From Candidatus Pelearchaeum maunauluense (GTDB taxonomy: Archaea; Thermoproteota; Nitrososphaeria_A; Caldarchaeales; Caldarchaeaceae), in the NCBI GenBank assembly GCA_030059675.1, contig JANVYQ010000001.1, positions 1 through 64,000 on the forward strand: a stretch of DNA of 64,000 nt. Direction: 5' to 3'. The notes under the pieces were generated by a model, which saw only the letters and a program-made list of their open reading frames with translations, was not told the DNA's origin and ran no database searches. The position numbers and the translations under genes are program-made. Every line of letters begins with the position of its first letter. Within the stretch, counting starts at the first letter, position 1. Below are positions 1 to 14,444 of this stretch, in pieces.

Positions 1-2
1 TC

Positions 3-485
3 GCTTACTTGGCGTGGCTCTTGGCTGGTATTGATGTGCGCAGAAAGCTCTTCATAACTCTAGGCATCCTAGGGATGGCCTCAATACTGGCTGGCGGAGC
101 AACAGTCGTGTTGATGCAACAGATGACCGTGCCGCCGACAGCTAGGCCTATGGAGAAACTCATACCGATAATAATCTTCTCCCTGGTAATGGGGGGACTT
201 TCTCTCGCGGTCAAGATTCTTGAGCTCATCTCATTCTTCTCTGCTGCGCGTCAATTTGGCGCTAGTATATTCAAGTACGCTGGGATAGCTGGAATCATAG
301 CGCTGGTCGTGGCTATCCTGCTTCCCACGTCTGCTGCCGTTATATTACTGGCCGCTGGGCGTCCAGCTATAAATGGCTTCCTAAGCCTCGTCCTGCCAAC
401 AATATTTGTAGTAGTCTCAGCAGCATATTCTGTGTTCTATATGCTGGCTGCGTATGCTTTCATAGGTCTCCGTAGGGTGGTGTGA
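3..485 (+). CDS. Integral membrane protein, 5' end outside window (DUF996-like)
   Basis: The reading frame is open to the first bases of the window, with no stop before position 9, so the annotated part is probably the C-terminal portion of a longer gene; a TTG at position 9 is only a formal start. The visible ~160 residues form about four hydrophobic segments separated by short loops. The glycine/alanine-rich composition recalls the small archaeal DUF996 membrane proteins, but no signature motif proves it. It ends in a TGA four bases before the start of the SppA gene, so the two are probably cotranscribed. Function unknown; membrane location is clear, family assignment is weak. Confidence 0.6.
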   Translation, partial: AYLAWLLAGIDVRRKLFITLGILGMASILAGGATVVLMQQMTVPPTARPMEKLIPIIIFSLVMGGLSLAVKILELISFFSAARQFGASIFKYAGIAGIIALVVAILLPTSAAVILLAAGRPAINGFLSLVLPTIFVVVSAAYSVFYMLAAYAFIGLRRVV

Positions 486-488
486 ATT

Positions 489-1436
489 ATGCAGACCAAG
501 TGGATTATTGTTATAGTTGTCGCCGCCGTTGTTGCGGCCTCTCTAATACCGTTCCTATTCATAGCTGGTAATACCCCGCTACCCGTCGGGGGAGACTACG
601 TGGCGTTGCTGGAGCTTAGCGGAACAATCTCCTACGATGGCTCGCCAATATCCCTGTTCGGCAGAACACTAACCCCAGCAGACGTGGAGGAGATGGTTGA
701 GCAGGTTGAGAGCAACCCCTTCGCGAAGGCCGTCGTGCTGGTCATAAACAGCCCTGGAGGCAGCGCGGCGGCGTCTGAGGAGATATACCAGATGTTTAGG
801 AAGCTGGCTGAGAAGAAGCCTGTTGTTGCGTATATTGCTGAGTATGGCGCTTCTGGCGGCTATTATATAGCCCTGCCCGCTAGCAGGATAGTTGCCTCAC
901 CCTCGGCTCTCACAGGCTCCGTAGGCGCTGTTGCGCTGGTCATAAACTATGCGGAGCTGGCTGATAGGCTGGGCATTAGGGCTTACGTCTTCAAGAGCGG
1001 CGGTATGAAGGATGTGGGCAACCCGTTCAGGGAGCTGAGCAGCGAGGAGCAGAAACTCCTCCAGTCGCTCATAGACTCAACAGCCGAGACCTTTGCCTCG
1101 CGGGTGAGGGAGGCGCGCGAGGGAAAGATAAAGGCCTGGGACGAAGTGCTGACGGCCAGGCCATACACAGGGGAGCAGGCTCTCAGGATTGGGCTGGTGG
1201 ACATGGTGGGCAGCATAGGCGATGCCGTAAACGTGGCTAGAGAGCTCGCGGGAGTCCCAGAGGATACCCCAACCCGCTGGATAAGGCCCAGAACCCCGAG
1301 CCTCCTAGAGATGCTACTCGGCGGCGGGCTTGAGATACCAGGCGAGAGAATGAAACTAAGCTACGAGATACTACTAATGTGGCCGCTACCAGAAGCAATA
1401 CCAATAGAAAGCATCACATACCTATCAGCAAACTGA
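489..1436 (+). CDS. sppA: Signal peptide peptidase SppA (S49 serine protease)
   Basis: This 315-residue membrane-anchored protease should degrade cleaved signal peptides in the membrane. Residues ~5-27 form an N-terminal transmembrane anchor and the rest is the S49 domain facing outward. The nucleophile is Ser122 in ASGGYY and the general base is Lys174 in GMKDVGNPF. Their separation of exactly 52 residues matches the Ser/Lys dyad spacing known for bacterial SppA. The NSPGGS segment (~88-93) is the conserved oxyanion/strand region. Length fits the short archaeal SppA with one catalytic domain. The ATG at 489 follows the membrane-protein stop by 3 nt, suggesting an operon. The function call is firm. 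Confidence 0.93.
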   Translation: MQTKWIIVIVVAAVVAASLIPFLFIAGNTPLPVGGDYVALLELSGTISYDGSPISLFGRTLTPADVEEMVEQVESNPFAKAVVLVINSPGGSAAASEEIYQMFRKLAEKKPVVAYIAEYGASGGYYIALPASRIVASPSALTGSVGAVALVINYAELADRLGIRAYVFKSGGMKDVGNPFRELSSEEQKLLQSLIDSTAETFASRVREAREGKIKAWDEVLTARPYTGEQALRIGLVDMVGSIGDAVNVARELAGVPEDTPTRWIRPRTPSLLEMLLGGGLEIPGERMKLSYEILLMWPLPEAIPIESITYLSAN

Positions 1437-1524
1437 CCACACCATAAAGAATTTTGTTGAGGAGCCTTTCAAGCCCGCTTCCTGCTAGAGCTTGGAATTC
1501 GCTGTTGTATATTTTCCTAAAAGC

Positions 1525-1572: not shown

Positions 1573-2349
1573 GTGGCCCTGTTTGGTAGGGCTTTGCAGA
1601 ACCTACGACTACTGCGTGAGCCGCGTATATATAGACTAGGCCCTGTGGAAAATCCCTACGAGATATACCGAAGCATAGCTCTCGGCGAGGAGTACTCGTT
1701 TCTACTGGAGTCGGTCAGCGGTCCTAGGAAGCTGCGCGAATACTCGTTCATAGGGTTTGACCCCTACTTGGTCATCCGTCTCCATGATGGCATTCTGCTA
1801 GTGAAGGATATTGCTGGCGGCAGCGTGGCTGAGGTGGAGGTAGCTGACCCAGTGGAGCCTCTTAGGTGGCTTGTCCTATCAAACCCCATAGGCTCTGGGT
1901 TTAGGTTCCTGGGCGGCGCGGTAGGATACCTATCTTACGACGCCATACGATACTGGGAGAAGCTACCAGAGCTGGCAAAGCGTGTGGGAGACTTCCCAGA
2001 TATGGAGTTCGCCGTATACGACAGGGGATTTGTGATAGACCATAGGATGGGCGAGGCATACTACTACACCATGCGGAAGGGGGATGATGCACCGCCCAAA
2101 ATAGAACGCGTCAAGAACACAGCCAATCTACGTGTAAGCGGCGTCAAGTGCAACGTCAAGCAGAACGAGTTTGAGGACATGCTTATAAGAGCCAAGGAAT
2201 ACATAGCCGCTGGCGACATCTTCCAAGTAGTTCTATCAAAACGCTACGACATGCAGCTCTCAGGGGACGTTTGTAGATTCTATGAGCAGCTAAGGGAGCT
2301 GAACCCCTCGCCCTACATGTATCTCCTCAAGATGGGTGAGCGGGCATAA
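1573..2349 (+). pseudogene. trpE: Anthranilate synthase component I, 3'-truncated
   Basis: TrpE makes anthranilate from chorismate and an amino group, the first step of tryptophan synthesis. The 258 residues from the GTG at 1573 match the N-terminal domain, including the tryptophan-feedback LLES motif (residues 44-47), and the start of the chorismate-binding domain (AAGDIFQVVLSKRY). The normal ~420-450 residue protein continues after YLLKMGERA with an active-site segment; here the frame meets TAA within two codons and the following DNA is AT-rich and unrelated. All catalytic C-terminal residues are missing, so it should be inactive. The break is at about 2345-2350 and marks one edge of the CRISPR cassette. 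Partner genes trpG, trpD, trpC and trpF are not in the window. Confidence 0.9.
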
Positions 2350-2378
2350 ATCGCCCAAAAACTTGGGAAGTAGATTCT

Positions 2379-2402
2379 GGACACTCGAAAGAGGATTGAA
2401 AG
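2379..2402 (+). repeat. Degenerate CRISPR-like repeat at the left cassette edge
   Basis: The last 15 bases (AAAGAGGATTGAAAG) match the 3' half of the classical Thermoproteales repeat ending GAGGATTGAAAG; the first 9 bases match poorly. It lies ~30-35 nt from the trpE break and points opposite to the array at the other cassette edge. A single copy, so it could be coincidence, but the ATTGAAAG end equals the tag of both other repeat types in the window. Confidence 0.45.
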
Positions 2403-2682
2403 TTCTAAATTCAACTACCTGATAATGAACGAATACGAATTAGTTGTGTAGTATTGCTATTGCAGTCACAGCTTCTTCCAAAGTCTTTAACTCCCTTTAT
2501 CTCTCTGCATGAGAATTTTGGGGAGCATCTCAGGCATACAACGCAGGTTAAGGTCAGCTACGAAAGAAGTCCTAATCAAATACATGTATAAAAAATCGAG
2601 GCTAACCCTAATAACAAAAGCTTAAAGCGAAACTTAACAATGCCCGCTCTGTGAAATTAGCAACGAACTTGTTTAATAAAGC

Positions 2683-2690
2683 CTTATAAG
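2683..2690 (+). promoter_or_regulatory. Putative TATA box of the type III cas operon
   Basis: CTTATAAG lies ~37-44 nt before the GTG at 2727, preceded by a second AT-rich run (TTTAATAAA at 2672-2680). Either could drive the whole coupled operon from 2727 to 12372, because every downstream gene overlaps its predecessor. Confidence 0.45.
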
Positions 2691-2726
2691 TCAGTAATTA
2701 ACGGGAGTTTCTGTGGGTGCGCACGT

Positions 2727-3125
2727 GTGTCCGCGCCTGGTAGTGAATTATTAAATAAAGTGTTATTAAACTATGCAGCAAGAATAGGAGTCGCTGCGAA
2801 GCTTGAGAGAGTTGATAGATCGCAGTTAGAAAAACTGATTACGTCATTAGATTATGTGGGAGGCCAGGAGGAGTCGCTACTCGTAACGTCTGCCTTCGCA
2901 ATGAGGCAGGCGGCTAGAAATGAGCTAGGAAGGACAACGGCGCAGCTAGTAGGCGAAGCTTTGGAGAAGTGTAATGGAAAGGCGCAGGCTAGGGCCGTAT
3001 TGGGACTAGCTAAATGGGTATTTGAAAGCATCGAGAGGATACCCATACAGATTCGTTTGGAGGAGGTAGCTACGCTGAGCTTCCAGCACTACCTGAAGGC
3101 AGTAAGGGAGAGGCAACTTGCCTAA
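2727..3125 (+). CDS. Type III CRISPR small subunit (Cas11; Csm2/Cmr5-like)
   Basis: This 132-residue all-helical protein has the size and position of the type III small subunit, which lines the belly of the effector complex along the crRNA-target duplex. It has no catalytic motif, as expected. A segment with AFAMRQAARNELG and ARAVLGLAKWVFE (residues ~56-95) resembles the helical core of Csm2/Cmr5 families, but sequence alone does not decide which. The GTG start follows a TATA-like element. Its 3' end overlaps the next gene's TTG by 8 nt. Assignment rests mainly on length, helicity and being first in a run of RAMP genes and cas10. Confidence 0.7.
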   Translation: MSAPGSELLNKVLLNYAARIGVAAKLERVDRSQLEKLITSLDYVGGQEESLLVTSAFAMRQAARNELGRTTAQLVGEALEKCNGKAQARAVLGLAKWVFESIERIPIQIRLEEVATLSFQHYLKAVRERQLA

Positions 3126-3834
3126 CTACAAGGACTTCAACTCTGATAAAACACAGATAATTAGGATAGAAGGCATACTCATCAATGAGACCCCACTGAG
3201 GGTCGGAGCTGGCAAGGAATCCTCCTTAGAAGCCAGCGTGGACGTCGCAGTTTACAGGGTCAGGGGTAACCCGTGCATACCTGGTTCTAGCTTAAAGGGA
3301 GTGCTCAGGACTAGATTTGAGCAGTTAGCCAGAAGCGCTGGGCTTAGGGTCCACGGGATATTCGGCGAGGAGGGCGAGAGAATAACAAGGCAAGAGGACG
3401 AGAGTAATGACTTTTGCGAGGTCTGCGGGACGTTCGGTAATACTAGGTTAGCTAGCCACGTGATCGTCAGATACGCTTATCCAATTAATGGAGGAAGGAC
3501 GTTCCTGAAGACGAGCGTAGGTATAGATAGGGTCTTTGAGGGCGCTAGGCCTGGAGTACTGTTCACGGAGGAGCTCGTTGAGCCGTTTACCGAGTGGAGC
3601 TTCGGAATGGATATAATAAATATAGATGTCCTGCCAGAACCGAGAGAGGACGACAACAGGGCTAAACTTCTGAAGTCGCTCCTAGACGAGCTCTCCTCTT
3701 TAGGCGTGTACGTGGGAGCTAGGAGGAGTGTAGGCCACGGGCTCATTAAACTCAGGAAGTGGAGCTGGTCGAAGTACAGCTACGAGAAAGGCAAATTGGT
3801 AAAGGTCGACGGAAGTGAAGTAAAGATTGTCTAG
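3118..3834 (+). CDS. Csm3-like RAMP (Cas7 backbone) protein
   Basis: This 238-residue RAMP should form part of the Cas7-type backbone that holds crRNA and cuts target RNA. The N-terminal fold shows LRVGAGKE, then VDVAVYR with Asp42 at the place of the catalytic Asp of Csm3, then the hallmark IPGSSLKGVLR. A CEVCGTFGN Cys pair sits mid-protein. GIDR and the C-terminal Gly-rich GARRSVGHG loop complete the RAMP signature. The TTG start overlaps the upstream stop by 8 nt and its own end overlaps the next gene by 8 nt, so translation is coupled. Because Asp42 is kept, it should be cleavage-competent (inference from Csm3). Confidence 0.88.
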   Translation: MPNYKDFNSDKTQIIRIEGILINETPLRVGAGKESSLEASVDVAVYRVRGNPCIPGSSLKGVLRTRFEQLARSAGLRVHGIFGEEGERITRQEDESNDFCEVCGTFGNTRLASHVIVRYAYPINGGRTFLKTSVGIDRVFEGARPGVLFTEELVEPFTEWSFGMDIINIDVLPEPREDDNRAKLLKSLLDELSSLGVYVGARRSVGHGLIKLRKWSWSKYSYEKGKLVKVDGSEVKIV

Positions 3835-4738
3835 TAGGGAAGATTGGATAGCGTCGAATAATTATTTGAGAGATGTTTTAATACAGGGAGATATAATAAA
3901 TTTATCGCCTTTAAGGATAGGTGCCGGAAAAGAGACAGTATTGGTTTCCCCGATAGATTTGTCAGTTATACGAGTAAACCTCAATGGTATCCCGACACCG
4001 TACATCCCCGGCTCTAGCTTAAAAGGGATCTTCAGAAGCCAGGCTACCGCGCTGTCTAGGAGCAAGGGACTGAACGTCTGCAGCGGCCTATCTAAGGAGA
4101 CCTGTATGGATACGAAGGTTATAGGAGGTGTTCCATTGAGGCAGTTCGTGGATTGGAACTTAAGGGCAGGTAACGTAGCTAACGCTCTAAGGGCATTCGC
4201 TAGTGACGCCTGTCTGCTCTGTCACGTCTTCGGAGCACCGTCTTACGCCTCAAAGGTCAATTTCTCTGACGCGTACCCAATAGAGCGCGAGGGTGTGAGA
4301 CTAGGCTCTAGGACTGGGATCGCTATAGACAGGAAGACTGGCGCGGTGTTCCACCAAGCGCTTTACACAGTTGAGTACGTCGAGCCCGGCGCTAGGTTCT
4401 CGCTCTCGATACATTGCAGGAACATACCGAACTACGCGCTGGGGCTCATTTCTTCCATCATCAAGTTGGTAAACGATGGCAGCGTTAGGGTCGGAGGATT
4501 GAAGAGCAGAGGCTTCGGCCTAGTAAAGATAGAGAACCTCTCGTTCTCGATAAAGGATGCGCAAGGAAGCGAAGCTGTTCTAAGGGCTCTAGACGAGTGC
4601 GACTCCGAGGTCGACATAAGCGGTTTGCGGAAGGAGAGGAGGGATGGCTACGTAGTTATTAGGGGTGGCGAGTGCGAGCGGTTGATGGACGCCCTGCAGG
4701 AAGTCTGGAGAGGGTTTAAGGGTTATGAGCAGCGTTGA
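3827..4738 (+). CDS. Csm3-like RAMP protein, second paralogue
   Basis: A 303-residue RAMP closely parallel to the gene before it: LRIGAGKE, then SPIDLSVIR with Asp44 at the Csm3 cleavage position, then IPGSSLKGIFR. A ~60-residue insertion (residues ~80-140) contains several cysteines (CSGLSKETC, CLLCHVFGAP) that could bind zinc. GIAIDRKTGA and GGLKSRGFGL form the usual C-terminal motifs. Extra length relative to classic Csm3 comes from that insertion and a C-terminal tail. The TTG start overlaps the previous gene by 8 nt; the end overlaps the next start by 14 nt. Probably another backbone subunit with its own cleavage site. Confidence 0.88.
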   Translation: MSSREDWIASNNYLRDVLIQGDIINLSPLRIGAGKETVLVSPIDLSVIRVNLNGIPTPYIPGSSLKGIFRSQATALSRSKGLNVCSGLSKETCMDTKVIGGVPLRQFVDWNLRAGNVANALRAFASDACLLCHVFGAPSYASKVNFSDAYPIEREGVRLGSRTGIAIDRKTGAVFHQALYTVEYVEPGARFSLSIHCRNIPNYALGLISSIIKLVNDGSVRVGGLKSRGFGLVKIENLSFSIKDAQGSEAVLRALDECDSEVDISGLRKERRDGYVVIRGGECERLMDALQEVWRGFKGYEQR

Positions 4739-5699
4739 GGTCATAAAGAACCCGCCTAGGAGGAGGGACGTTTACGAAGGCTTAACCGGGACTATACGAG
4801 CCTCAATAATAGCAGAGAGTTTCCTTTTCGTCGGCTCTGGCAGGAGATCGATCGGGATCAGCGAAGAAAATGTAAGGAGGGTACTGAGCGGCAAGAGGAA
4901 TTTCAGGCAGGCGGCCGTCGAGCTATCTCAGAGGATAAAGCTCGAGCACGACGAGTTCTCGGTCAGCGGAGGAAGGGCTGTAGTTCCTGGCTCAAGCGTT
5001 AAGGGGAACGTGAGGTCTAGGATAGAGTTAAGCATCGTTCCGAGCGCGGGAAAGGTAATCTCATGCTTAGTAAGGGCCTCGAGAGTATCTAGCGAGCCCG
5101 GCAGGGGCACGCAGGGGTGGAGGCACTGGAGGATATGGAGGGAAGGCATCGAGGCACAAAGGGGCCCTCCATGCGATATGACTAGGGGCCAGACGGTCTG
5201 CAAAGTGTGCGACCTCTTCGGGAGCGCTGGGCTCATTAGCTTGATTCACTTCAGCGACTTCCAGATGGGTGACGGAGGTCTAGAACCGCTATCATTGGAT
5301 CACGGGATCAAACTCATGTCGGCCCGCCCTGGCTCTGTCTTCAACGGTTCCATCGCGTTCATGAACCTCTCTCCTGACGAGCTCGGCCTGCTCTTGTTCG
5401 GAATGGGCATAAGGAATTCCGCTGAAGGCTTAACCATATTGTTCGGCAAGCTTAAGTACAGGAAAGAGTTCTCTGGGAGGCAGTTCGGGAGGGGTAAATT
5501 CAAGGTAGAACGGATAGAGTTAAGCGACGTCTCCAAACCTTTGGTGACAGACGGCGGTGAACTCATCGCTCCAGGTAGGTCGGTATCAGGGCCAGAGCTT
5601 AACGGCGTACTAAGGGCACTACGCAAGGCGATGCTAGACTCGTTCTCTAATTATCTCGTCGAGATAATGGAGGTCGAGAGGTTACATGGCATTAGTTAA
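4725..5699 (+). CDS. RAMP superfamily protein of type III complex
   Basis: This 324-residue protein shows VPGSSVKGNVR (residues ~87-97) and a mid-protein CKVCDLFGSAG cysteine pair, both RAMP hallmarks, plus a DHGIKLMSARPGS segment at the place of the GIDR motif. An ~30-residue insertion precedes the RAMP motif and contains EHDEFSV, so whether an Asp is placed for RNA cleavage cannot be told by eye. It starts with ATG 14 nt inside the previous gene and ends 14 nt inside cas10. Likely a divergent Cas7-group or Csm5-like capping subunit; the exact place in the complex is inferred only from operon order. Confidence 0.8.
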   Translation: MSSVEVIKNPPRRRDVYEGLTGTIRASIIAESFLFVGSGRRSIGISEENVRRVLSGKRNFRQAAVELSQRIKLEHDEFSVSGGRAVVPGSSVKGNVRSRIELSIVPSAGKVISCLVRASRVSSEPGRGTQGWRHWRIWREGIEAQRGPPCDMTRGQTVCKVCDLFGSAGLISLIHFSDFQMGDGGLEPLSLDHGIKLMSARPGSVFNGSIAFMNLSPDELGLLLFGMGIRNSAEGLTILFGKLKYRKEFSGRQFGRGKFKVERIELSDVSKPLVTDGGELIAPGRSVSGPELNGVLRALRKAMLDSFSNYLVEIMEVERLHGIS

Positions 5700-8442
5700 C
5701 ATACCTTACACACCTCTGGGATACCCCGTCTACAAGTCCTTCATAATACCGTATAGGGATGGAGACGGGGTAGTTACCTGTAGGCGTCTAGAGAAGAGCG
5801 ACGTCGATAACTGGAGGGAGACGCTAGCGCAGCTCAGGGAGTTCTTAGAGCTAGTCGAAGGTACGGCCGCCGATGAGGAGGTAAAGGTTGAGTTAATTGC
5901 AGATATGGTCGCCGCCTTCTTCAAGGCTCCTCTTATAGCCGACCCGTTACCGTCACTCTTCATAAGCCCCTCGAAGCTTTACGTCATGCTCAGGTCCTTC
6001 GGCAGCAAACGGCTTAGCGACTTAATAATGCTAGATAAACGTCAGGAGAGCTTCTTGGACGTCTTTCGGACGGTTATGAACGAAGACATTATAAGGAAAA
6101 TCAAAAGCTCGAAGTTGTACGGTTATCTCTCTAGTAGGAGGTTATACGAGGTTCTGGAGAACAGCTGGTTCGTTATCCCTGCAGATACTAGGCCTGGCTA
6201 CAACGTCTCGAGTTTAGTACCACACCTGTTGCTCAGCTCAGCCGCTGCGTGGTGCATAGCTGTAAACAACGGAGGTGTTGAGAGGGAGGAGGCCGCATTG
6301 ATAAGAATTGCAGCGATGTTTCACGACGCGGGGAAGCCGTTTAATTACCAGCGGCACGTTGAACCCTCTTTACAGGTCGCTAGGTCCGTCTTAGGTAACG
6401 TCATACACCCGAGTTATATAGATAAGATAGTTGAGATAATAGAGAGGCACCACGAGGAGACTTCACCACTACATAAAGCTGACAGGGCAGTAGCGTCGAT
6501 CGACAGGCTGAACTACTTGGTAAGCGCGTTGATAGGCAACGAGATAAGGGACGCGGCTAAGGAGATAGGTGAGGTCGACGAAGTAAAGGATGAGCTTTAC
6601 CAGACGGGATGGAGCTTCTGGAGGAGATTATACGAGCATTATTCTTCTTCAGGAGCTGATAAGGTTAGGGAGCTGTCGGAGAAGTTCGTTAACAGACTAG
6701 CAGAGCACTCAGATAGTTACAAGTCGGTAATAGACAAGGAGAAGGCAGACGGTGAGGAGGTAAAGGACATAGATGTGCTGCTAATTGACATTGGAGGAAT
6801 ACAGAACTTCATATACAAGGGCGAGGACCTCCGCTCGCTATCGGCCGCTAGTCTCTCGGTAGACTTCCTCACGATGGCATACATACCCCTTTTCCTCCAG
6901 AGCTTCCTGCTCAGCCGATACGGCATCTGGCCCCCATACGAGGCGTTCGTCTACTCGGCTGGAGGTGTAGTCGAGGTGCTCCTGCCCTCGCGCATCGCTG
7001 AGAAGGTCAGCGGAGAGTTGGAGGAGGAGCTGAACAGGCGCGTGAAGGGAAGGTCGTCGATGAATGAGCTCTCGGTCAGGCTGATCAGAGGGAGACTCTA
7101 CACTAAGTACTCTACGACCACCGTCAAGTTAAGCCAAGGGATGGCTATCAAGAAGAACACCTCGAGGATGGACGTCACCCAAGAAGTAGAGGGCGAACTA
7201 GGAAAAGAAGTGAAGAGGTTATGCGAGAACTGTAGGTCTAGAAGGCCGGCGCGCGGCGAGCGCGTATGCGAGGTCTGCAGGGCTCTTAGAGAGATAGGCA
7301 GCGCGATCCACTTCAAGGAGAAGTACACAACGGAGGTCGAGCTACCGCAAGGGATATCACGGGATAGGATTTTGACGTGCGAAAAGGCGTTTGGGATTGA
7401 TTGGAATAGTGCATCTAACTTCCTGACCGAGCTAATAGCTGGCAACGATCCTAGGAAGTTGCCAGAAGAGAAGATAAGGTCTCTGGCAGTTGTAGCGTGT
7501 GACGGGAATTTAATGGGCCCGTTCATAGCTTCTAGCGTTTCTTTGACCGATAAACTAGAGAGGAGCACTAGAATAGATATCGCGATGAAGAAGGCTTTGC
7601 GGAGAGCTGTCGAGGAGATATCTAAGGCTATCGGTAGCGAGGACGGGGAGGAGGCCGTAAGGACGTATCTAAGGGTATACCTCGGGACCGTCTACGCTGG
7701 CGGAGACGACGCGCTCATACTGAGCCCCGCATGGGCCTCGCCTATATTAGCTACTAGGCTATCTGAAGAGTTCGCGAGGGAGCTAGGAGGGGCTAGAGGG
7801 CTTTCCGTCGGGTTGGTAGCCGTCAACGCCAGGGCTAACATATGGGGCGCTATCGACGCCGCCAAAAGCCTGCTCAAGTTCGCTAAAGATAAGGGAAGGG
7901 ACAGGCTAGGCGAGGGGTTAGGATATATCGCATTTGACGCTATCGACGCAGGGATGTTCTCCGGGAGCACCTCAAAGTCGAGGTTGGGACAACTCGAAGC
8001 CGCTATTCTTTCACATCAACCGTACGTTATAGGCCGCGATTCAGATAACTCGATCAACGCGCTGTTGTCTATAATCCTCTCGGGGAGCTGGTCATCAGGC
8101 GATCCTAAAGGCGCTGAGGACGCTGTTAGGAAAGCCTTTAAGATCTACATAGGTGGAGAGGAGCAGAACGAGGTTAAAAGGTTAAGGAACGTGATCCGGA
8201 GGGCCCTCTCGTCCTGCTTGGAGATGGCAGCCGCACTAGGGATCTCTAAGGACTCTGAGAGCTACGTAGGAGGCCTAATACCGACGTATATCGCTAGGCA
8301 AATAGCTAGAGTTAAGGAGGGCACTGGTGGGAGGGCTTACGAGATTACCTTCAAGCTAATTCCCGGCTTCGTTGGTAGCAATTATTCTGCGCTAGGAGAC
8401 GCTTTCATCATGATAAAGATACTCGGAGGCGGATTGTTATGA
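5686..8442 (+). CDS. cas10: Cas10, type III large subunit with HD and GGDD
   Basis: This 918-residue signature protein of type III CRISPR systems should degrade DNA and make cyclic oligoadenylate second messengers when target RNA is bound. The HD nuclease domain has MFHDAGKPF with His213-Asp214 and a His255-His256 pair. The first Palm domain includes IDIGGIQNFIY near residue 367. A four-cysteine zinc module (Cys513, 516, 528, 531) lies between the palms. The second Palm has an intact GGDD at residues 672-675 in YAGGDDALIL. Both catalytic sites therefore look functional. The ATG overlaps the previous gene by 14 nt; the stop overlaps the next start by 4 nt. Identification is very secure. Confidence 0.97.
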   Translation: MALVNIPYTPLGYPVYKSFIIPYRDGDGVVTCRRLEKSDVDNWRETLAQLREFLELVEGTAADEEVKVELIADMVAAFFKAPLIADPLPSLFISPSKLYVMLRSFGSKRLSDLIMLDKRQESFLDVFRTVMNEDIIRKIKSSKLYGYLSSRRLYEVLENSWFVIPADTRPGYNVSSLVPHLLLSSAAAWCIAVNNGGVEREEAALIRIAAMFHDAGKPFNYQRHVEPSLQVARSVLGNVIHPSYIDKIVEIIERHHEETSPLHKADRAVASIDRLNYLVSALIGNEIRDAAKEIGEVDEVKDELYQTGWSFWRRLYEHYSSSGADKVRELSEKFVNRLAEHSDSYKSVIDKEKADGEEVKDIDVLLIDIGGIQNFIYKGEDLRSLSAASLSVDFLTMAYIPLFLQSFLLSRYGIWPPYEAFVYSAGGVVEVLLPSRIAEKVSGELEEELNRRVKGRSSMNELSVRLIRGRLYTKYSTTTVKLSQGMAIKKNTSRMDVTQEVEGELGKEVKRLCENCRSRRPARGERVCEVCRALREIGSAIHFKEKYTTEVELPQGISRDRILTCEKAFGIDWNSASNFLTELIAGNDPRKLPEEKIRSLAVVACDGNLMGPFIASSVSLTDKLERSTRIDIAMKKALRRAVEEISKAIGSEDGEEAVRTYLRVYLGTVYAGGDDALILSPAWASPILATRLSEEFARELGGARGLSVGLVAVNARANIWGAIDAAKSLLKFAKDKGRDRLGEGLGYIAFDAIDAGMFSGSTSKSRLGQLEAAILSHQPYVIGRDSDNSINALLSIILSGSWSSGDPKGAEDAVRKAFKIYIGGEEQNEVKRLRNVIRRALSSCLEMAAALGISKDSESYVGGLIPTYIARQIARVKEGTGGRAYEITFKLIPGFVGSNYSALGDAFIMIKILGGGLL

Positions 8443-9119
8443 AGGAGATAAAGGTCTACCTGAAACCGGTCACACTCCTGAGTATAGGTTCCGGCGTAGA
8501 GGAGGCTGTAGGTTCTGACATAGTGCAGATCAGGACTAGGACCGAGAGGGGACTCGTTCCTTACATACCCGGCTCTTCAGTCAAGGGAGCGCTCAGGTCG
8601 GCAGTCAGCAGGGTAGCTAGGAACTACGGCTTCGAGAGCTGCGGCGAGACTCTGCCTGAATATGTGAAGGCTAGACACGTAGAGATGCTTAAAGAGGGAA
8701 AGGAGTGCGACGTCTGCTACGTCTTCGGCCAACCGGGCCCGTCAGTATCTAATATGGGAAAGGCAGTCTTCTCGCCTTTCTACCCGGACGGTGAAGTAAC
8801 TGTTACCTCGATAACTAGGGTTAGGTTAGAAGACTCCAGCTTAAGGGCCCACGAGGGAGCGCTATATACGGCCGAGTGCATAGTGCCGGGCCAGACCTTC
8901 AGCGGCTCGATTAGAATAATAGCTAGGAGAAACGGAGACGTCAGGAAAACGCTACAACTGCTGCTGCTCTCGCTAGCGTCCCTAAGGACCGATAGAATAG
9001 GAAGGTCAGGGATAACCGATGTTAGGATAGAATTAGCTGATGATTTGAAGGCACTGTTAGACAGTAAGTGGAGGTCCCTCGCCTCAGATTTGGAGGGGTG
9101 GTTCTGGGTTGATATGTAA
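8439..9119 (+). CDS. Csm3-like RAMP protein, third paralogue
   Basis: A compact 226-residue RAMP starting at ATG 8439, overlapping cas10 by 4 nt. It has LLSIGSG, VGSDIVQIR with Asp27 at the Csm3 cleavage position, IPGSSVKGALR, a CDVCYVFGQPG cysteine pair and a shortened C-terminal domain ending in a GRSGITDVRI loop. The Asp suggests a third potentially cleaving backbone subunit. It lies between cas10 and the Csx10-like gene. Size and motifs fit Csm3; the short C-terminus could mean a position at the end of the filament. Confidence 0.86.
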   Translation: MKEIKVYLKPVTLLSIGSGVEEAVGSDIVQIRTRTERGLVPYIPGSSVKGALRSAVSRVARNYGFESCGETLPEYVKARHVEMLKEGKECDVCYVFGQPGPSVSNMGKAVFSPFYPDGEVTVTSITRVRLEDSSLRAHEGALYTAECIVPGQTFSGSIRIIARRNGDVRKTLQLLLLSLASLRTDRIGRSGITDVRIELADDLKALLDSKWRSLASDLEGWFWVDM

Positions 9120-10185
9120 AGAGGTAGAGATCGAGTTCGTAACCCCTGCGATAGTGAGCACACGCGTATCCGATAGAGGTTACGTTGCGCCGAGCAGCTA
9201 CATAGCCGCTACTACCGTTAGAGGGGCCCTGTTATCATCGCTGCTCTATCACGGGTACGTCGACGAGGAGCTAGTAGCCAAAGAGGCCGAGAGGCCCTCG
9301 GTAATAGCTAGCCCTGCCTATCCGTTGAGCGGTGAAGGCAAGAGGGCCCTTCCAGCCACTCTTCTACACATCAGGTGCAAGGTCTGCAAGGAAGTACGCA
9401 TTCCGCAAGACTTCAGGATAACCGCAGAAGGGATCGAGGGAGCGGAGACGCTTTGTAGAAATGGTCACCCAGCTGTGGAGAGTCCACATCCTAAACCGGT
9501 ATACCTTAGCGGAGAAAAAGGTATGGAGGATGCAAATGTCAGCTGCGAGAGCCCGATAAACGTAGGGATGAGCAGGTACAGGGCCTCGGCAGCTGGAAAG
9601 ATGCTCTACATATACGAGGCCATCTCGCCAAAGAGCAGGTTCTGGTTCAGGGTCGTTAGCTTAGAGGACGTAGAGGTCCCATCGCAACAAACCCTGTGGC
9701 TCGGGAGAGGGATAACTAGAGGCTTCGGCGAGGCTAGGATGAGGGTCAGGAGCGAGATAAGCTTCGAGGGGCTTGCTGAGCGGATGAGGGACGCTAGCAG
9801 GGAGGGTAGGGAGCTGCTATTCTACTCGTTATCGCCCATAGCTAGGGTTGACGGCGATAAGTACTGTGGCTACCCATCGAGGGTAGATCTTTACAGGTTA
9901 TCTGCTAAGAGGAGGGGAGGGGAGCTCAGGATACGAAACATTTACGGCCGGCCGATCGACGTGAGTCTAGGCTGGAGCATTACTAGGGAGAGGGAGGGCG
10001 AGAGGCCAAATCTCTTCTCAGTAGCTCCGATGGGCTCACTCGTGGTAGCTAGCCCGCATGAGACGAGCCCGGAGGACCTAGCCATGCTGTTCCTAGCTGG
10101 TACCGTAGAGGACGTCCTGGGTTCTCCGATAACGGGGCTTAACATGTTAGGCCCTGCCGAGCTAGCTCTGGGCGAGAATCTGTGA
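9109..10185 (+). CDS. Csx10/Cas5-like RAMP (crRNA 5'-tag side subunit)
   Basis: This 358-residue protein has the N-terminal YVAPSSYIAATTVRGALL motif and the strong Gly-rich loop LGRGITRGFGEA typical of Csx10/Csm4-Cmr3 (Cas5-group) proteins, which cap the complex at the crRNA 5' tag beside Cas10. A Cys pair IRCKVCKE plus a later LCRNGHP may bind zinc. Presence of a Csx10-like gene with several Csm3 paralogues suggests a III-D-like architecture, although subtype needs profile searches. The TTG start overlaps the upstream stop by 11 nt and the end overlaps the next GTG by 4 nt. Confidence 0.78.
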   Translation: MICKEVEIEFVTPAIVSTRVSDRGYVAPSSYIAATTVRGALLSSLLYHGYVDEELVAKEAERPSVIASPAYPLSGEGKRALPATLLHIRCKVCKEVRIPQDFRITAEGIEGAETLCRNGHPAVESPHPKPVYLSGEKGMEDANVSCESPINVGMSRYRASAAGKMLYIYEAISPKSRFWFRVVSLEDVEVPSQQTLWLGRGITRGFGEARMRVRSEISFEGLAERMRDASREGRELLFYSLSPIARVDGDKYCGYPSRVDLYRLSAKRRGGELRIRNIYGRPIDVSLGWSITREREGERPNLFSVAPMGSLVVASPHETSPEDLAMLFLAGTVEDVLGSPITGLNMLGPAELALGENL

Positions 10186-11120
10186 GGGCTAGCCACATAG
10201 GGAACGTTACCGTTAGGAGCCTGGCCATACTCTACCTAGAGCCGGAGACGCCTATATATGTAGGTGCTGGAGGAGAGGAGGTCGTTAGATACTTCCTCAG
10301 ATTACCGGGAAGGGGCCTGCTAATACCTGCGACGAGCTGGAAGGGAGCCTTCAGGGCTGTGACCGAGGCGATAGCTAGGAGTTTAACTAGGGAGGACGTA
10401 AAGGACGAGCTAGAGTGGATAGCCCTAAGGACTTACTCCGAGGCCGACGACGGGATAAGGTACAAGGCTGATAGTGAAGAGCTTGAGAGGGTAGGGAAGG
10501 AAGTGAAGGTTATACTCAACGGAGGCAAGAGCGAGCTCTTAGACGTGAGCAAGGAGGAGCTACTTTATTTCCTAGAGGAGGCGGGCTCCGAGAGGGAGAA
10601 GCTGGAGCGTAACGACGAGCACGAGTTAAGAAGTGCAGCTGAGAAGCTGGTCGCACTCAACTGCCCTATCTCCAAGCTCTACGGGAATAAGGTCATAGCT
10701 AGCAAGCTCAAGTTCCTAGACACGATAATCGACGCACCTACCTCGATTAGGCCCGGTATAGCCATAGACAGGGCTAGCATGAGGGTTAGGGAGGGACACC
10801 TCTTCTTCACCGAGGTCTTAGACAGGAAGGATACAATACAGCTTAAGTTAATAATTGATAACGTAAAGCCCGGAGAGACTGATTCGCTACTTTTAGCATC
10901 AACCTTACGACATATAGAGACGCTAGGGCTGAGGATAGGGGGGAGGAGGTCAACGGGTTTGGGGAACCTAAGACTTAGAGAAGCGAAGATATACACGATA
11001 AATCTAGAAGAGGACGTAAAAAGGGAAAGGATGAAAATAGCGAGGATAACTGAAGGAGATCAGCGTAGCATAACAGAATTCATAGAATGGTTGATGGCAC
11101 AGAGAGATGAGCGTTCATAA
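10182..11120 (+). CDS. RAMP protein, divergent (no cleavage Asp)
   Basis: A 312-residue RAMP beginning at GTG 10182. It keeps the fold markers IYVGAGGEE, IPATSWKGAFR, GIAIDR and RIGGRRSTGLGNLRL. The Csm3-type Asp is replaced: VVRYFLRL occupies the segment where the other paralogues carry it. A charged ~100-residue helical insertion (residues ~60-160, rich in Glu/Lys) separates the motifs. This suggests a structural, non-cleaving subunit such as a Csm5-like cap at the crRNA 3' end; that role is inference. The 3' end overlaps the AT-rich next gene by 14 nt, where base composition changes abruptly. Confidence 0.82.
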   Translation: MRASHIGNVTVRSLAILYLEPETPIYVGAGGEEVVRYFLRLPGRGLLIPATSWKGAFRAVTEAIARSLTREDVKDELEWIALRTYSEADDGIRYKADSEELERVGKEVKVILNGGKSELLDVSKEELLYFLEEAGSEREKLERNDEHELRSAAEKLVALNCPISKLYGNKVIASKLKFLDTIIDAPTSIRPGIAIDRASMRVREGHLFFTEVLDRKDTIQLKLIIDNVKPGETDSLLLASTLRHIETLGLRIGGRRSTGLGNLRLREAKIYTINLEEDVKRERMKIARITEGDQRSITEFIEWLMAQRDERS

Positions 11121-12372
11121 ACAGATAATTATGCGACAATTTGATGAGGCGTTTAGTAAAATAAGCATATTATCTTACTTTCTTAGCAACCTTGATATAA
11201 GGTTGCATGAGATCAATATTAATAAAATATTAGAGGAATGGTTACTCGATAATGCAATTAAAAAGTTAAATGATGAAAAATGGGATAATATATTAAGTAA
11301 ACTTGTAATAAGCACCCTAGAAACTAAATCAAGAGAACTATTTCATGAGATAATATCTTACACAGAAAATAAAATTAACGAATATAAAAACTATATAAAA
11401 GAATTAACACATGCCAAACACCCCCCTCCTGATGAAGCTCTCTCTGTCTTTATAAATTGTAGTAAAGTTTTACATGATTTCGTTATATTTGAAAAAGAGA
11501 AAATAAAGGAATTAAGAGAGATTATAAATAAGAGTTTAAATGAGGGCCTATGGTATTTATGCAGTATAAATTCTATGCTCTTTACACTTAGTGAATATAA
11601 AATTATAGAGGTACTTAGGCCACCTAGAAACGGGCAAATACTCCTAACATATGGGTCAGTTTTTCAACAACCTATATCGTTTAAGGTAAATCTTGATTTA
11701 ATCAATGATTTAACAATTTTATTTGAAAATTATACGAGTTTAAACCTAAATGACAGTCGTCTTGTAGAACGGTTAGCTACATGGAGGGCAGAGAACAAAG
11801 AAAATGAGATTATCGAACTATTAACAAATAAAATATGCAGTCTTAACCAGTTACAAAATAAAGGCGATAAAATTAGAGATCTCATAAAAATGATTACGTA
11901 TATACTGATAAGAAATAAGCAGGTTTGTTTATTAGACTTATTTAATTATCTACTTTCTAAATCAAGTCGCGGAACTGTTAACCTGTTGGTTTCACTCGAA
12001 ATATATAAGAACACACATGTATGCGTAATACCTCATTGTGAGGTTAAATTTGATGAAGATTTACTCAAAGAAGTTGACTTAGTAATTCCCTATGTCAATG
12101 CAAAATTTCCAAACCTTATAATAATTGAAATAACTACTAGCAAAAGTGATAAAGAAATAGATAGAAAACTATGTGAGTTTGAGAAGAAATTACTCATCTT
12201 AAGGAATTACTGTGATGTACTAGGAATACTCGTTCATAATAACAACGAAAAAATTTACGAAGAACGTTCCGAACAATTAATTATAGCACCTTTTTCAGAG
12301 TTTCAAAAAATCCTAGAGAAAATAAGATCTGAAGTGTCTTCGAATAGTAGCCTCATTTTGGAGAACGTATAA
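11107..12372 (+). CDS. Uncharacterised AT-rich protein coupled to type III operon; possible PD-(D/E)XK-like effector
   Basis: I do not recognise this 421-residue protein. Residues 1-300 are mostly helical and Lys/Asn/Ile-rich. Residues ~310-380 look like an alpha/beta nuclease core: VDLVIPY with Asp324, then the hydrophobic strand LIIIEITTSK with Glu341, then a Lys/Glu-rich helix, spaced as in PD-(D/E)XK folds. The usual Lys two residues after Glu is Thr343; Lys346 is nearby. No CARF domain is evident. It starts with ATG 14 nt inside the upstream RAMP gene, so translation is coupled to the complex. It is far more AT-rich than the rest of the operon, a sign of separate acquisition. A role as the type III accessory effector is inference. 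Confidence 0.6.
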   Translation: MSVHKQIIMRQFDEAFSKISILSYFLSNLDIRLHEININKILEEWLLDNAIKKLNDEKWDNILSKLVISTLETKSRELFHEIISYTENKINEYKNYIKELTHAKHPPPDEALSVFINCSKVLHDFVIFEKEKIKELREIINKSLNEGLWYLCSINSMLFTLSEYKIIEVLRPPRNGQILLTYGSVFQQPISFKVNLDLINDLTILFENYTSLNLNDSRLVERLATWRAENKENEIIELLTNKICSLNQLQNKGDKIRDLIKMITYILIRNKQVCLLDLFNYLLSKSSRGTVNLLVSLEIYKNTHVCVIPHCEVKFDEDLLKEVDLVIPYVNAKFPNLIIIEITTSKSDKEIDRKLCEFEKKLLILRNYCDVLGILVHNNNEKIYEERSEQLIIAPFSEFQKILEKIRSEVSSNSSLILENV

Positions 12373-12769
12373 TTTTTAACCCCATATATGGTTATAAATC
12401 TCCAGGCGATGAATGTGTCCCCTAAGGAATAATTATATTATAATTATATCAATAGACACAACTCTCAACTACGAGATTTATCATCGAAATGCGTTTACTT
12501 GCTTTTAAGGAGTAGGGGTAGGGGGCCTAGCAGAGACGTTAGACTATACATAACTATCGTAGTTGTTAATGAGAGGTCTAAAGGCTCTCTGAGATATGTT
12601 GAGGACAACTATAGGTATAGGTTTAGGTGAAGTTCAGCGACATGATGAAACTAGGAGAAGGAATAAACTGAAACTAAGATATTAGCAAGATTGATAGCAC
12701 GTGCAGCGAAGATATGGACGAGGATAGTAAGGGCAATAAATGAAATTATTAGACACGCTCACAGGATTG
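12373..12769. other. Non-coding stretch between cas operon and array, with a possible gene remnant
   Basis: About 400 bp without an intact gene. Near 12512-12630 a short + strand frame reads YITIVVVNERSKGSLRYVED then NYRYRFR and stops; a second helical frame follows near 12670-12770 (LIARAAKIWTRIVRAINEII). Together they resemble a decayed transposase C-terminus (an RYRFR-type motif) but no catalytic residues survive. The left part is AT-rich and may hold the operon's transcription stop. Confidence 0.3.
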
Positions 12770-12928
12770 TTTTAAATTCCTTCTAGGATTCAAGTTACAC
12801 GACGGTCTCGAGGATAGACATCGACTCCATGTTCATCTTTCAATTCCTTCTAGGCTTCAAGGCGACAGGCTGATGTGGTACAACATGGGCGAGTTCGACC
12901 ACACTTTCAATTCCTTCTAGGATTCAAG
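12770..12928 (-). CRISPR. Three-repeat CRISPR array, truncated by trpB
   Basis: Three 25-nt repeats at 12770-12794, 12837-12861 and 12904-12928 begin CTTTCAATTC and end TTCAAG. They are separated by two unrelated 42-nt spacers. The first copy differs at two positions and the second at one from the consensus. Read on the minus strand the repeat ends AATTGAAAG, the usual archaeal 5'-tag sequence, so transcription should run leftward and the leader should lie to the right. Only ~27-30 nt of a third spacer separate the last repeat from trpB sequence, so the leader side is missing. The most degenerate repeat is at the trailing end, as usual. Confidence 0.92.
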
Positions 12929-12955
12929 AGCGCAGGCATGATAGTCCAAGGCCGT

Positions 12956-13702
12956 TTAGCCCTCTTCCTCCATCTGCCGCACAGCTTCAAGACCAATAAC
13001 CGACTGGTGGATTAGCGTGAAGTTCATCACACTCCCTACAGCGTATCTATAGCCATCTCCCTGGAGCACGGTCTCTACGGCCTCAGAGATCGCTATACCC
13101 AGGGAGCCTGGGTGTTCTGGGTTTTCTCCAAGCAGTATGGAGCCGAGCCGCGTCCGCCTACTTGGGCTGGGAACAACCTCAGCACCATACATGCGCATCA
13201 AGTACCGCCTATAGGGTTTCTGGCGATAGCTACTCCGCGTCATGAAGACTAGGCAACGGAGGCCGAAGCGTGATGCAGCGAGAGCAACAGCAGAGCCCCA
13301 CTGGCCAGCACCAGTCTCGGTAACCAAATACGCGGAGTTCTCTCTATGCGCATAATACGCCTGAGGCAGGGCCGTGTTGGACTTATGACTACCAATCGGG
13401 TTGATGTCCTCGCGTTTGTAGAGGATATGTGCAGGCGTGTCAAGTAGCTTCTCAAGCCGCCTAGCCCTTACCAGCGGCGTCGGTCTGCCCAGAGCTCTGT
13501 AAGCTTCAAGAACCGCGTCTAGAATATCTATGTAGCGCTGCGGTGATATCTCTTGGTCTAGAAGCTCCGCTGGGAAGAGCTTGGGCAAATTCTCAATCCG
13601 CGAATGCTCGTCAAAGCTTTTAGGGTCTCGTGGTGGTAATGGTTTGGGGAGGTCTGGCAGAATATTATACCATCTATTGCTGAGTATAGCCATGCCTCTC
13701 AA
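12956..13702 (-). pseudogene. trpB: Tryptophan synthase beta chain (TrpB2 type), 3'-truncated
   Basis: TrpB joins indole and serine with PLP. The 248 residues here match the N-terminal half of the TrpB2 family: WYNILPDLPKPLPPRDP near the start, KREDINPIGSHKSN with the PLP lysine, and ETGAGQWGSA. The normal ~430-residue protein continues with the glycine-rich GGGSN PLP-phosphate loop; here the sequence stops after MEEEG at a TAA supplied by CRISPR spacer DNA. It should be inactive. The start is either GTG/ATG at 13702 or the ATG of MAILSNRW at 13693; both overlap trpA by 20-29 nt, so trpA-trpB were translationally coupled. The break at ~12955 is the right edge of the CRISPR cassette. Confidence 0.92.
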
Positions 13703-14444
13703 CCGCCCTCTTTAATTCAGCGACAAAACCGCATACGCGGCTTATCTTTTCATCCTCACCCGCTTCCTCTAAAATTCGCAGTAGAGCGCTCCCCACCACG
13801 ACGCCATCCGCGCCTGCCTGCATGTATTGCTCCACCTGCTCAGGGCTTCGGACAGCAAAGCCAACAATAAGCGGCACACTCCCTACCAGCTCGCGGAAGA
13901 GGCGTATGTTCCTCCCAGCCGAGATGGGCAGTAGAACCCCAGTAGATACCATCAAGCCCAGGTAGATGAAAGCTGGCTCCAAGGAGGAGAGCCGCTTAAC
14001 CAACTTATGCGGAAAGCCCGTAGTTATGAAGAAAGCCTGCGCAACACCATACTTCTCACAGAGCCTAGAGTATCTCTCCAATTCCCCCAAGTGGTCTATC
14101 AACAAATCTGGAAATAACACACTACCGAACCCACTACTAACCCTGGAGAAGAAATCTTCAACCCCATACTTGAGAGCCTCGTCATAGTAGGTGAATAGAA
14201 TCTTGTTATCTCCAGGTAATTTGACAGCAGAATCCAGAGCATCGTCAAGCCCAGACAGGCTGGCGAGCGCGCGGCGCATAGAGCGTCTGATAACAGGACC
14301 ATCATACTTGGGCCTAGCTACGGGAAGCCCCACCTCAAGAATATCCATACCCGACTGATAGAGAGCAGAGACTAGCTTCGTGTTGATGAGCGGGTCTCCC
14401 GCGGTTATGTACAGGATGAGCGCGCGTCTTAGTTTTGGCAGCAT
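13674..14444 (-). CDS. trpA: Tryptophan synthase alpha chain
   Basis: TrpA splits indole-3-glycerol phosphate into indole and glyceraldehyde-3-phosphate. The 256-residue TIM barrel has YITAGDP, the catalytic Glu in LEVGLPVARPKYDGP together with the conserved Asp of KYDGP, and the phosphate-binding GADGVVVGSAL near residue 220. Length is normal. It is the first gene of a leftward trpA-trpB pair. With trpB and trpE broken, it can serve tryptophan synthesis only if intact copies exist elsewhere; otherwise it is a stranded relic. Confidence 0.93.
   Translation of the reverse strand: MLPKLRRALILYITAGDPLINTKLVSALYQSGMDILEVGLPVARPKYDGPVIRRSMRRALASLSGLDDALDSAVKLPGDNKILFTYYDEALKYGVEDFFSRVSSGFGSVLFPDLLIDHLGELERYSRLCEKYGVAQAFFITTGFPHKLVKRLSSLEPAFIYLGLMVSTGVLLPISAGRNIRLFRELVGSVPLIVGFAVRSPEQVEQYMQAGADGVVVGSALLRILEEAGEDEKISRVCGFVAELKRAVERHGYTQQ

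Follow-up and report, generated by a model that had tools for sequence, protein, structure and literature searches.

A type III-D CRISPR-cas cassette in place of the core of the tryptophan operon: a probable chromosomal replacement in a Caldarchaeales-type archaeon

The CRISPR-cas cassettes of the Sulfolobales lie in variable, transposon-rich regions of the genome (PMC4390879), and for the biosynthetic side of the present case, the TrpB2-type tryptophan synthase beta serves as comparison system (PMC11917138, citing Busch et al. 2014). Type III-D modules with the cas gene order described below occur in Caldarchaeum, Calditenuis, HR01, Bathyarchaeota, Methanomethylicota and other archaea, whose proteins are about 30–57% identical to those of the present module. 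Here we describe a type III-D operon with the trailer end of a CRISPR array that stands between the halves of trpE and trpB in Candidatus Pelearchaeum maunauluense, within a window of 64,000 nucleotides (contig JANVYQ010000001.1, positions 1 to 64,000; Table 1). No description of this locus turned up in literature searches. We consider it very probable that this is a real chromosomal replacement, in which 10.6 kb took the place of some 4.2 kb of trp DNA.

Table 1. Features of the replaced trp locus, in window coordinates
Position	Strand	Feature	Evidence
489..1436	+	SppA-like protease, native left neighbour	name from sequence reading; window 1–1440 93% identical to G001:C73
1573..2343	+	trpE remnant, codons 1–257, open frame, 3' half lost	PF04715; PF00425 partial; homology end 2342–2343
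2344..2726	.	left insert end, AT-rich non-coding (39% GC)	unmatched in trp DNA of relatives
2727..3125	+	small subunit Csm2 of type III-D	PADLOC Csm2 CAS-III-D, E 3.8e-14
3118..3834	+	Csm3/Csx7-type Cas7	TIGR02581 above cut-off; PADLOC Csm3
3827..4738	+	Csm3/Csx7-type Cas7	TIGR02581 above cut-off
4725..5699	+	RAMP protein, Cas7-like	PF03787; weak TIGR03986
5686..8442	+	Cas10 with HD (HDAGK) and GGDD (YAGGDDAL) motifs	PF22335, PF01966
8439..9119	+	Csm3-type Cas7	PF03787, PADLOC Csm3
9109..10185	+	Csx10 (Cas5 of III-D)	PADLOC Cas5_IIId, E 2.1e-11; TIGR02674 weak
10182..11120	+	Csm3-type Cas7	PF03787, PADLOC Csm3
11107..12372	+	AT-rich (29% GC) 421-aa orphan ORF, overlaps last cas gene	no family match
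12475..12750	+	putative insertion-sequence transposase relic, decayed, with stops and internal deletion	tblastn to intact copy
12770..12928	-	three CRISPR repeats, 25 nt, period 67, two full spacers	repeat starts 12770, 12837, 12904
12929..12958	-	third spacer, truncated (30 nt); right junction	trpB homology back at 12959
12959..13702	-	trpB remnant, codons 1–248, open frame, 3' half lost	85% aa to G004 TrpB
13674..14444	-	trpA, intact, ORF 256 aa	G004 orthologue

The ancestral state can be read from two relatives. In G004, a single contig carries trpE (6543–7946), trpG, trpD, trpC and trpF (to 10989), followed by the convergent trpB (10978–12261) and trpA, the gene names being assigned by position and by reading of the translations. 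In G001, a member of the same genus, trpE-G-D-C-F lie on one contig, whose last bases, read in reverse, encode the TrpB C-terminus. Projected on G004, the window is without about 4,192 bp, and alignment to the trp DNA of both relatives shows 10,615 bp in their stead, between the end of trpE homology (~2343) and the start of trpB homology (12959). The flanks are native: window 1–1440 is 93% identical to G001:C73:297–1736, and the DNA past trpA is 89–91% identical to G001:C35. An earlier note on this DNA had claimed that trpE and trpB are both cut on the side facing the cas genes and that the cassette replaced these gene ends and perhaps also trpG, trpD, trpC and trpF; the cuts were placed correctly to within a few bases, and the intact loci of G004 and G001 bear out the rest. 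The same note had counted intact trpE–trpB neighbours in relatives against such a replacement. The relatives are intact, yet this is the ancestral state and favours a replacement. In G001, a CRISPR array with a leader lies between SppA and trpE (L031 = G001:C56 20–171; L111 = G001:C73 27–112), and the window has no array there, just about 75 bp of mostly unrelated sequence (1437–1514). The trpE neighbourhood has therefore been labile in the genus.

Both gene remnants are still open. The frame 1573–2349 (+) aligns with TrpE over its first 257 codons, at 88% amino acid identity to the congener and 71% to G004, and the homology breaks off where both relatives run on into the rest of the 461–467-aa enzyme. 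PF04715 is kept whole, and of the chorismate-binding domain PF00425 just 62 of the 257 profile positions are left, so that most of this domain is gone. On the other side, 248 codons of the frame 12956–13702 (-) align with TrpB of G004, which has 427 aa in full length. The trpE remnant shows a dS of 0.31 and a dN/dS of 0.195 against G001, and trpA a dN/dS of 0.18 against its G004 orthologue. When the changes were polarised by G004, 8 silent and 7 replacement changes fell on the window branch and 13 and 4 on the G001 branch, numbers that are too small to prove relaxed selection. As both remnants are native and have not yet decayed, the comparison suggests a recent event.

An assembly artefact has to be weighed against a real replacement. 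The earlier note had offered as an alternative that the contig was joined in CRISPR DNA, and a foreign or unlinked CRISPR-cas contig could have been misjoined between the trp ends while the missing trp genes lie in assembly gaps; the genome is a short-read style assembly of 21 contigs and 94% completeness, and arrays do break the assemblies of relatives, as the G001 contigs C56 and C73 end in arrays. We nevertheless regard a chimera as quite unlikely. Exact overlaps of 77 bp connect seven pairs of contig ends, among them the start of the window's contig (C2) and the end of C21. Such overlaps are the mark of a k=77 de Bruijn assembly, in which the k-mers at the junctions derive from reads as long as no gap-closing step has joined tips. 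The DNA at both junctions is unique and not part of a repeat, the flanks on both sides are native and match, the missing 4.2 kb are on no other contig, and a random join would not pick two convergent halves that both stem from one ancestral locus. The window contains no N bases, and no second genome was found that shares the junctions. Window 1–77 is identical to the end of C21, and C21 and C2 are thus probably adjacent in the genome. The start of G001:C73 (L111 1–17) carries a sequence that resembles a Nextera adapter (CTGTCTCTTATACACAT).

A real replacement raises the question of what became of tryptophan synthesis. The G001 DNA from mid-trpE to trpB, searched against the host's own assembly, matched the trpE remnant and nothing else; the remnant was likewise the sole match of Chorismate_bind (PF00425), and TrpD had no match. 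The earlier note had suspected that the lineage turned from a tryptophan producer into an auxotroph or relies on second copies. Its first part holds for the genes, which are absent from the assembly, and the lineage has very probably lost de novo tryptophan synthesis and may well have become auxotrophic. Its second part holds for trpB, of which a complete second gene is found on contig C20 (a 501-aa frame, 57% identical to the trpB remnant), but this intact copy cannot stand in for the lost pathway steps. Absence of the pathway is common in the family, since TrpD is missing from 5 of 8 family genomes, and Chorismate_bind likewise from 5 of 8. A single-contig family member, G003, has a partial pathway, with trpD-C-F, trpB and trpA kept (L096 = G003:C1:876000–895999, 9408–14254) and no detectable TrpE or Chorismate_bind domain.

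The inserted block itself contains familiar genes. Pfam, TIGRFAM and PADLOC profile matches give eight genes in the order Csm2, Csm3, Csm3, RAMP, Cas10, Csm3, Csx10, Csm3, which by these matches form a complete type III-D effector operon, ordinary in kind; the Csx10-type Cas5, the III-D small subunit and several Cas7 proteins were all recognized by PADLOC. The HD and GGDD motifs of Cas10 are conserved among homologues, and its palm domain matches PF22335 above cut-off, with a TIGR02578 match below the equivalog cut-off of that profile. The operon plausibly retains a promoter of its own, as a TATA-like CTTATAAG can be seen by eye near 2683–2690, ahead of the first cas gene. The 29% GC of the 421-aa ORF contrasts with the 52% GC of the operon. 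No relative of this ORF was found among Pfam, TIGR and PADLOC profiles, in the PDB or among viruses, and its single-sequence structure model is poor (pLDDT 37); a reading of motifs makes a restriction-type nuclease fold of its C-terminus possible. The relic farther downstream gave no Pfam match, and it is probably a former transposase, matching an intact 279-aa ORF in another genome (L109:1941–2780; tblastn, E 9e-8 and 7e-4); copies are present in G002, G003 and G018.

The three repeats form a CRISPR array with regular repeats and unique spacers, and 0 such repeats are expected by chance. The repeat at 12770 is degenerate and represents the trailer. No leader stands beside the first repeat: on that side, the trpB remnant starts 31 nt past the last repeat. 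We took the orientation from the native arrays of the host (C8) and of G001, in which, on the transcribed strand, the repeat starts with CAGAAATCC or CTTGAATCC and the leader lies on that side, and by this rule, the leader of the inserted array once lay on the trpB side and would now be gone. The inserted repeat differs from that of the host's own C8 array and matches the long arrays of G024, which belongs to another family of the same order. Since the GC content of the insert, 52%, is like that of the host, its foreign origin is argued from this repeat and from the lack of any Cas10 match in the congener G001. When Cas10 was used to look for a donor across the order, GTDB species genomes and plasmids, it gave only relatives of 24–38% identity or none. 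A 10.7-kb interval between arrays of near-identical repeats in G024 was considered as donor and rejected, as its cas genes form another set, which appears to be type I when its ORFs are read, and yield no Cas10 match. The native repeats end in the same ATTGAAAG handle as the inserted ones, and the III-D complex could also use crRNAs from native arrays. The spacers had no target among all loci compared. One native spacer matches G004 trpD over 16 nt, which was taken as chance, and we found no evidence for a deletion driven by self-targeting. Solitary native CRISPR repeats occur at G000:C2:68548 and C2:370510–371327, and the right end of C2 carries leader-like sequence.

How the block came to its place can be proposed from the two junctions. 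As a discrete block with a foreign repeat type and an insertion-sequence relic within, it could be suspected to have entered the trp locus as a whole, as a transposon or an integrative element, but we consider this highly improbable. No terminal inverted repeats stood out from chance (an equal or better score came up in 699 of 1000 random pairs), and no target duplication was found at the insert ends, which makes transposition unlikely; moreover, the block contains no intact recombinase, just the dead fragment of an insertion sequence, and 4.2 kb of the target are missing. We rather propose that the 3' half of trpE, trpG, trpD, trpC, trpF and the 3' half of trpB, about 4.2 kb, would have been lost as 10.6 kb of foreign DNA, the III-D operon with the trailer end of an array, came to join trpE codon 257 to trpB codon 248. 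As the likeliest route, an incoming or translocated fragment would have been captured through illegitimate repair or recombination, or an insertion would have been followed by a deletion beside it. De novo tryptophan synthesis would thereby have been lost, and the stand-alone trpB may have been left for indole salvage. That the replacement took two events, either a trp deletion followed by the cassette or the cassette followed by an adjacent deletion, departs from this explanation only in the number of steps, and we regard it tentatively as a possible course: the absence of TrpD and PF00425 from several family genomes and the position of the relic near the right end speak for it, whereas the two ends of the insert fall exactly where the deletion ends and no trp DNA is left over, and the open frames of both remnants indicate that little time has passed.

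The arrangement also places the block between two host transcription units. trpA and the trpB remnant are transcribed toward the array in crRNA sense, and trpE toward the cas operon in the same sense as the operon, so that transcription through trpA and the trpB remnant may reach the leaderless array. A functional fusion, in which the trpE promoter drives the cas operon and the trpA–trpB promoter the array, and biosynthetic control sets CRISPR expression, seems doubtful to us. The block has just two possible orientations, and the matching directions, a one-in-two outcome, are therefore a lead and not evidence of selection.

In summary, this is not a new kind of system but a clean gene-replacement scar. 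The scar is fresh and can be compared with the intact locus of a sister species, and it illustrates that gaining a defence module and losing an amino-acid pathway can amount to a single change at the level of the locus. It offers a concrete case for asking how tryptophan biosynthesis comes to be lost in this archaeal family, where the pathway is patchy, and whether a host operon can express an array that lacks its leader. With the TrpB2-type tryptophan synthase beta it shares a second, complete trpB, the one on C20, whose assignment to subclass and substrate is putative. The Sulfolobales regions likewise rearrange, in part via mobile elements, and modules are exchanged between systems (PMC4390879), but here the cassette sits within a biosynthetic operon and the core of this operon is replaced. 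The order of Csm2, the four Csm3-type Cas7 proteins, RAMP, Cas10 and Csx10 is the same as in other archaeal type III-D modules, from which the insert differs by its additional AT-rich 421-aa ORF and by an array that is cut on the leader side.
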